64,000 nt of DNA. It comes from Carboxylicivirga sediminis (GTDB lineage: Bacteria > Bacteroidota > Bacteroidia > Bacteroidales > Marinilabiliaceae). The stretch covers positions 16,101-80,100 of the forward strand of contig NZ_JAGTAR010000029.1 of the NCBI RefSeq assembly GCF_018156225.1, in the 5' to 3' direction. Below the pieces are notes generated by a model. It had not been told where the DNA came from and did no database searches. It saw only the letters and a list, made by a program, of their open reading frames with translations. The translations under genes were made by a program, and so were the position numbers. This document shows, piece by piece, positions 27,852-28,098 of this stretch (position 1 is its first letter; the number at the start of each line of letters is the position of its first letter).

Positions 27852-27882
27852 TTTGAAATTAAGAGTAAATTCTCTTTATTTG
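27852..27882 (+). promoter_or_regulatory. Bacteroidota-type promoter of the metY leader
   Basis: TTTG (27852-27855), a 19-base spacer, then TTTATTTG (27875-27882), 7 of 8 to TAnnTTTG. The expected transcription start falls at about 27887-27890, on or beside the ATG of the leader peptide at 27889, making it nearly leaderless. Confidence 0.65.
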
Positions 27883-27888
27883 CATCTG

Positions 27889-27990
27889 ATGAATAACAAT
27901 TTATTCCATATTACTTCTACTAAAGTGAATGCCACAAAGGCCATTCATCCTTCTTGTCATATGATGATGTGTATGATGATGACACTTTAA
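27889..27990 (+). CDS. Met/Cys-rich leader peptide upstream of metY
   Basis: A 33-codon frame, start ATG 27889, stop TAA 27988-27990, 108 bases before metY. The last eleven residues before Thr-Leu-stop include Cys-His-Met-Met-Met-Cys-Met-Met-Met: six methionine and two cysteine codons in a row of nine. This is the composition expected of an attenuator peptide sensing charged Met-tRNA (and perhaps Cys-tRNA), placed before the gene that makes homocysteine or methionine precursors. A small palindrome (ACACTTTAAGTGT, 27982-27994) covers the stop codon and a second stem (27999-28006 with 28040-28047) follows. No T-run terminator is seen before metY, so the switch may act through Rho or translation. 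Mechanism is inference. Confidence 0.7.
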   Translation: MNNNLFHITSTKVNATKAIHPSCHMMMCMMMTL

Positions 27991-28047
27991 GTGTTACAAC
28001 GCATCGTATCTGAAAATCAAATAAACAGTTAGTACAGACCGGTGCGT
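27982..28047 (+). promoter_or_regulatory. Attenuator-like hairpins between leader peptide and metY
   Basis: The stop codon of the leader lies inside the palindrome ACACTTTAAGTGT (27982-27994). Next, ACGCATCG (27999-28006) can pair with CGGTGCGT (28040-28047, one G-U), with outer GTG/CAC support. A ribosome stalled on the Met run would cover or free the first hairpin. No intrinsic terminator is visible. The folding is inspected by eye only. Confidence 0.4.
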
Positions 28048-28098
28048 AAGGCACAGGTAGAGGTTAAAACAGAACATTAACCATAAAAACTAAATAGT

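Follow-up and report, generated by a model that had tools for sequence, protein, structure and literature searches.

A conserved Met-rich leader peptide frame upstream of metY in Carboxylicivirga sediminis, a predicted ribosome-mediated attenuator

Introduction

Accounts of methionine control in bacteria usually centre on SAM riboswitches, Met T-boxes and repressors, and the familiar ribosome-mediated attenuators are the trp, his, leu and thr operon leaders of Proteobacteria. Leaderless poly-cysteine short ORFs of mycobacteria are reportedly the subject, by its title, of a 2020 paper by Canestrari. Cys-run leaders without conserved terminators have been described in Mycobacterium, and for the methionine operons of Actinobacteria the same report gives no conserved RNA structures (Seliverstov 2005, PMC1262725). 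A leaderless Met/Cys leader, metL, has been proposed before metNIQ in S. lividans (PMC8079986), and the uORFC-8-2 motif before cysS in Rhodobacterales is a predicted Cys attenuator (PMC8632094). The authors of a 2010 paper (PMC2965389) state that, apart from ermC, they knew of demonstrated leader-peptide systems in no groups other than Proteobacteria and Actinobacteria before adding a Firmicutes case of their own; 'Bacteroid' occurs nowhere in its text. Short ORFs reminiscent of leader peptides have been mentioned in B. thetaiotaomicron (PMC7366714). Among the open-licence PMC papers listed by searches, none was seen to describe an amino-acid attenuator for Bacteroidota, a Met attenuator in this phylum or a SAM riboswitch feeding a leader peptide.

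The locus described here lies in a stretch of 64,000 nucleotides of the Carboxylicivirga sediminis genome [contig NZ_JAGTAR010000029.1], referred to as the window, in which a short frame ending in a run of Met and Cys codons precedes metY. As in the proteobacterial trp, his, leu and thr leaders, a short frame with pathway codons is combined with three mutually exclusive pairings and a switch set by ribosome position, the switch being predicted here; unlike them, the window element uses Met (with Cys), has a predicted near-leaderless start, lacks a T-run and belongs to Bacteroidota. The mycobacterial poly-Cys leaders, as far as the accessible accounts go, are similar in having a sulphur amino-acid run near the stop and before a sulphur gene, and they are reportedly leaderless (by the 2020 title), the window start being predicted near-leaderless. 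However, their run is of Cys, whereas the seven-codon run of the window element has six Met codons and a single Cys codon, and they come from another phylum with no homology shown. The part of the S. lividans paper that was available describes metL as a proposed leaderless Met/Cys leader that ends in GARCMCRRMCAF and has no typical Rho-independent terminator, but it precedes a transporter gene, has two internal Met and three Cys codons and is actinobacterial (PMC8079986). The uORFC-8-2 motif is likewise predicted to attenuate through the ribosome and combines stems with tandem Cys codons, but it has two Cys codons, a tRNA synthetase gene and a terminal U run, and belongs to Alphaproteobacteria (PMC8632094). 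The initial annotation of the window took leaders of this kind for methionine genes not to be a standard described class, a view that has to be qualified by the S. lividans proposal (PMC8079986) and the mycobacterial Cys-run leaders (PMC1262725). The SAM-I riboswitch (RF00162), which precedes metY in 41 of 80 named Bacteroidota loci, is absent before the window metY. A conserved Met-codon attenuator in Bacteroidota would add an input class to methionine control.

Results and Discussion

The leader frame and its promoter

The principal features of the locus, all on the forward strand, are as follows.

27852..27882 (+): predicted Bacteroidota promoter, TTTG at 27852-27855, a 19-nt spacer and the -7 box TTTATTTG at 27875-27882 (from the sequence).
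27889..27990 (+): reading frame of the leader peptide, with 33 codons before the stop codon, MNNNLFHITSTKVNATKAIHPSCHMMMCMMMTL (ORF list and sequence; 33-34 codons in 14/14 genus loci).
27961..27981 (+): predicted stall codons Met-Met-Met-Cys-Met-Met-Met (exact MMMCMMM in 11/14 and MMCMMM in 13/14 genus loci).
28099..29394 (+): metY, O-acetylhomoserine aminocarboxypropyltransferase/cysteine synthase (TIGR01326, 691 bits against a cut-off of 495).

Direct reading of the window places the leader start at ATG 27889 and its stop at TAA 27988-27990, which agrees with the 33-codon frame of the initial annotation; the ORF list has the frame opening at an in-frame TTG at 27853, upstream of this ATG. 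The C-terminal end is CHMMMCMMMTL, and 108 nt separate the frame from metY. Nine codons near the end hold six Met and two Cys, the composition that had first drawn attention to the frame. This is beyond chance, as a density of 8 Met/Cys per 10 residues was reached in 0/5000 dinucleotide shuffles of 27769-28098, where the best value was 5. The leader frame is also the top-scoring of 1372 short frames (10-60 codons) in the window, with a runner-up score of 5, and the codon pattern ATGATGATGNNNATGATGATG has its single exact occurrence in the 5.8 Mb genome in this frame. As the product of the metY reaction is homocysteine, from which methionine is made, the codon run and the gene agree in direction, and one hallmark of trp-type attenuators, an upstream short frame with a codon run for the pathway amino acid, is present in the window.

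The -7 consensus of Bacteroidota is TAnnTTTG, and the window box matches this consensus at 5/6 specified positions. The arrangement TTTG-N19-TTTATTTG reported earlier is found in the letters as a predicted promoter, with the -7 box ending 6 nt upstream of the leader ATG. The TTTATTTG box recurs in 13/14 genus loci, the remaining one carrying TTAATTTG, and the gap from box to ATG is 6-10 nt in all 14; in other genera of the family it is longer by reading, up to about 19 nt. Because the box lies so close, the transcript is predicted to start at, or a few nt from, the leader ATG. Such a near-leaderless start would be unusual, since 5' UTRs shorter than 10 nt make up only about 3.7% in B. thetaiotaomicron, according to the part of that study available (PMC7366714).

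Conservation in genus, family and order

A search for metY in 40 relatives gave matches in 33 genomes, and 30 upstream regions were read. In two other Carboxylicivirga genomes metY is 94% and 93% identical. A leader ATG is found 33-34 codons before the stop in 14/14 genus loci, one of which has an additional in-frame ATG further upstream, and the Met-rich end is kept in all 14. The conserved Met-rich frame on which the initial annotation had made the function of the leader depend is thus present in every genus locus. The N-terminal half is variable, with a recurrent HI motif at the N-terminus, and conservation is concentrated in the Met-rich end. Among the ten 33-codon genus leaders divergence is highest at third codon positions (0.54, with 0.40 and 0.37 at the other two), and 27.6% of the single-change codons are synonymous where 20.2% would be expected, while in the four 34-codon leaders the three positions are nearly equal (0.52, 0.49 and 0.54); support for translation from these values is mild at best, because the sequence pairs are not independent.

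A covariance model, R1, was built on 18 of the 30 upstream regions, the other 12 being without the element and dropped. Over 71 family genomes, 38 were matched at E up to 0.05 and 36 at E ≤ 3.1e-4, and 18 of those 36 had not contributed to the model. Each of the 36 strong matches lies directly upstream of a metY homologue (77-100% identity to the window metY), so that the comparison of metY-upstream regions suggested at the outset finds the element in 36/71 family genomes, always before metY. Three weaker family matches (G018, G431 and a second in G022) have no metY just downstream, and 35/71 family genomes gave no supported R1 match. The notion of a leader before every metY was rejected, as the family loci L021, L022, L023 and L026 score only 1-3.

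Over 393 genomes of the order, R1 matched 34 at E up to 0.1, and the confirmed metY leaders beyond the family are those of G118 and G038, where the metY homologues are 50-55% identical. Weak matches were inspected by locus (L039-L047, L097 and L098, with L048-L063 left out) and were rejected as members, metY being just downstream in 0/11. In G038 (L038, L100) two Met-rich leader frames stand in tandem before a single metY homologue, and a T-run terminator follows each of them; the second element has a weak E-value (0.063), yet has its own Met-rich frame and terminator. The exact ATGATGATGNNNATGATGATG pattern occurs in 28/395 phylum genomes, the window genome included. It was rejected as a phylum-wide finder, since the other frames inspected were mostly of low complexity with no met gene seen behind them, the genes being judged on their first 60 residues.

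Mutually exclusive RNA pairings

The segments that make up the alternative structures are located as follows.

27964..27972 (+): region 1, AUGAUGUGU (Met-Met-Cys codons), partner of region 2 (from folding).
27981..27995 (+): stop-codon hairpin, GACAC-TTTAA-GTGTT (covariation).
27999..28012 (+): region 2, ACGCATCG-TA-TCTG, common to helices 1:2 and 2:3 (alignment).
28035..28047 (+): region 3, CAGA-C-CGGTGCGT, 3' arm of helix 2:3, the predicted ON form (covariation).
28039..28057 (+): 3:4 hairpin, CC-g-GTGC/GCAC-a-GG, the predicted OFF form, without a T-run (shuffles and folding).

In RNA letters, region 2 reads ACGCAUCG..UCUG, region 3 CAGA.CGGUGCGU and region 4 GCACAGG. Two small stems had been noted after the stop codon; instead there are three mutually exclusive pairings, 1:2, 2:3 and 3:4, and an extra hairpin that encloses the stop codon. 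The complementary segments are conserved and covary. In a 36-sequence alignment fitted to the structure, 86.3% of cells pair and 10/17 pairs change on both sides (0/500 shuffles equal), and an unfitted 18-sequence alignment gives 93.4% and 5/17 (2/500 shuffles); these counts are to be read with the structure having been drawn on one row, with related sequences inflating them and with shuffles that ignore relatedness. Sliding the partner columns by one to three reduces pairing to 20-44%. Helix 2:3 has 12 pairs, of which 7 change on both sides, with 88.2% of cells paired in the 36 sequences. For the stop-codon hairpin 3/5 pairs change on both sides and 81.5% of cells pair in the same set, and 2/5 pairs change in the 18-sequence alignment. 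By this computed comparison the exclusive 1:2/2:3/3:4 set typical of trp-type attenuators is present, and 2:3 is strong. Comparative support for 3:4 is good in the genus and weaker elsewhere: at most 10 of 200 shuffles of its 3' side were as good in 12/14 genus loci (1/200 in the window), against only 7/22 loci outside the genus.

Each of the 36 elements was folded in three states (no ribosome, a ribosome halted at the first Met codon of the tail, and a ribosome at the stop codon), the ribosome being represented by an assumed mask of 15 nt from the A-site codon. With a stalled ribosome, the probability of 2:3 exceeds 0.5 in 35/36 elements. With the ribosome at the stop, region 3 is paired downstream above 0.5 in 34/36, a value for which any downstream partner was counted and the mask itself excludes 2:3. 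Without a ribosome, 1:2 exceeds 0.5 in 17/36 family loci and 11/14 genus loci (0.67 in the window), and in 3/14 genus loci 2:3 wins even so. The comparison of stalled and unstalled folds proposed at the start therefore gives the predicted switching in silico. The whole window leader folds better than its shuffles (z -2.35). A GGTTAA/TTAACC hairpin before metY was rejected by eye as an OFF element because several members of the genus no longer have its 5' arm.

Predicted mechanism

The leader-peptide element is real and conserved, and most likely it acts as a Met-responsive attenuator. In the reading that we regard as likely, stalling on the Met codons of the conserved leader raises metY by favouring 2:3 over 3:4. 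When charged Met-tRNA is scarce, the ribosome would stall on the leader Met codons and cover region 1; helix 2:3 would then form, the 3:4 hairpin would be blocked and metY expression would rise. With enough Met-tRNA, the ribosome would reach the stop and cover the start of region 2, leaving region 3 free for the 3:4 hairpin, and metY expression would fall. If the frame were not translated, 1:2 would form and region 3 would again be free for 3:4. The attenuation by ribosome position that the initial annotation had proposed thus gains from the conserved frame, the covarying helices and the in-silico switch, and its other part, Met-tRNA level as the signal, is kept here as a prediction. That the frame is translated, that ribosomes stall on its Met and perhaps also its Cys codons, and that 3:4 ends transcription are inferred steps. 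The Met codons would double as one strand of a switch helix, an economical design.

The OFF step

Neither the sequence nor the hairpin scan of the window gives a T-run terminator behind 3:4, as had been remarked before. As a 3:4 intrinsic terminator (hairpin plus T-run) is thus missing, the window element is not filed as a standard trp-type attenuator. A five-T run occurs near 3:4 in only 2/14 genus loci, at distances of 4 and 7 nt from the hairpin on its downstream side. In three other genera of the family, a T-run begins 7-10 nt behind 3:4 in 8/8 loci; in G038 and G118 the Met-rich frames are followed by hairpins with T-runs directly behind, as in textbook terminators; and L236 has, by eye, a T-run terminator after its leader.

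These differences bear on a serious though less probable alternative, in which the leader and the switch are the same but the OFF step is Rho-dependent or takes place at metY translation rather than by intrinsic termination. The bare 3:4 hairpin of the window favours it, and the mycobacterial Cys-run leaders, for which the available part of the report suggests Rho, are also without conserved terminator hairpins (PMC1262725). The T-run terminators of G038, G118, L236 and all eight loci of the three family genera argue for intrinsic termination instead, and control of metY translation would have to act from a hairpin 41 nt upstream of the metY ATG, which is far for direct masking. Within the genus, where 3:4 is mostly without a T-run, termination by 3:4 is possibly weak or occurs with Rho. 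We infer an old transcription attenuator whose terminator would have decayed, or become Rho-assisted, in Carboxylicivirga.

SAM-I riboswitches and Cys-rich frames in other Bacteroidota

An Rfam scan of the window gave no match at gathering score for any family, so that there is no SAM riboswitch here, in line with the initial annotation; a scan at permissive E gave four sub-threshold matches, with no regulatory class, T-box included, overlapping the element. For the phylum, the following counts were all made on 80 named Bacteroidota loci of metY, the best 80 of at least 587. In 37 of these 80, metY is preceded by a short frame that scores 5 or more Met/Cys per 10 residues, against 0/80 on the reverse strand and 11/4800 shuffles, and no frame scoring at least 5 was found in the other 43; among the 37 some may not be leaders (L191, L226 and L236 are odd in position or tail). 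Outside the family of the window the frames are mainly Cys-rich, e.g. CCGLMCCCMCCCMC. A SAM-I riboswitch (RF00162 in the Rfam scan) precedes metY in 41 of the 80, and is found before 23/37 loci with a Met/Cys-rich frame against 18/43 of the others. Cys-major frames number 29, of which 23 have SAM-I, and Met-major frames 8, none with SAM-I; these counts are not independent, because 7/8 Met-major loci are in the family of the window.

Of the 41 riboswitch-bearing loci in this set of 80, 40 have an ATG 6-10 nt downstream of the aptamer, which suggests that translation starts there and is controlled by the riboswitch. In 39/41 this ATG begins a frame 13-51 codons long, and 23 of these frames are Met/Cys-rich by the score of 5; in L204 it is the start of metY itself. 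Frames behind the SAM-I aptamer upstream of metY are seen for example in L179, L181, L190, L195, L205, L211, L221 and L239. The SAM-I riboswitch may thus gate leader translation. About even odds, in our judgement, attach to a two-input metY device in which SAM gates the leader and Cys- or Met-tRNA decides the outcome, the window element being a stripped descendant. Such a descendant would have lost the riboswitch, placed the promoter on the leader ATG and rewritten Cys codons to Met, and would have traded direct SAM sensing for Met-tRNA sensing; on the quick, midpoint-rooted tree used, both riboswitch loss and the direction from Cys to Met are tentative. Frames behind SAM-I lead to a testable prediction on two-signal combination and on sensor replacement.

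SAM-I is retained in 15/71 family genomes. In the window genome it lies before an aspartate kinase gene (TIGR00657), not metY (L253 1501-1599, contig C46:99978-100076), and in the genus a mini-frame behind this aspartate-kinase riboswitch often ends in RMPxRA within a GCCC/GGGC hairpin. Two order relatives without an R1 match (L028 and L031) have SAM-I and a Met-containing short frame (MHMLPMSMPRPKLR and ..CCFFMDMRGMRM) before metY.

Identity of the signal

The poly-Cys frames that often precede metY elsewhere in Bacteroidota, together with the central Cys codon of the run (conserved in 13/14 genus loci), mean that Cys-tRNA could be the signal. Cysteine synthase, moreover, is among the names of TIGR01326. 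On this reading the sensed amino acid would be cysteine, or both sulphur amino acids, with the Met codons as helpers. We consider it unlikely: six of the seven run codons are Met in the window, and Cys is missing from the run altogether in some genera of the family (GMMMGRMSMA). The UGU codon also belongs to region 1, so that RNA pairing alone could conserve it, and L070 has a Tyr codon at this place.

In arrest peptides conserved residues adjoin the stop codon, and the Met-rich end of the leader is so placed, with the HI motif recurring at genus N-termini. That the nascent peptide arrests the ribosome by binding a metabolite such as Met or SAM, and that scarcity of charged tRNA is not the cause, is nonetheless improbable, as the tail is highly variable across the phylum, from Met to Cys and of many lengths, with no fixed motif, while the residue type stays sulphur-containing. 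Least probable of all is a structured RNA, e.g. an unknown riboswitch, with the frame incidental to it, for although there is covariation, region 1 and the stop hairpin overlap codons and the four 34-codon genus members diverge about equally at the three codon positions, frame length, start codon and Met content stay constant while nucleotides diverge, third positions diverge most in the ten 33-codon members, and the poly-Cys frames elsewhere use both TGT and TGC.

Genes adjacent to metY

Downstream of metY, at 29509, is a homoserine dehydrogenase gene (NF004976). A metY-hom operon in the window genome is weakened by a terminator-like hairpin at 29400-29434, of a kind for which the hairpin scan found 4 sites against 2.6 in shuffles and so no excess. 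A TACATTTG box before homoserine dehydrogenase was seen by eye (window 29400-29460). On account of this box and the hairpin, the two genes may be separate transcripts. On the other side of the locus, a strong hairpin at 27490-27540, after a GH92 gene, is flanked, by eye, by an A run on one side and a T run on the other; it probably terminates transcription in both directions and so insulates the promoter region of metY.
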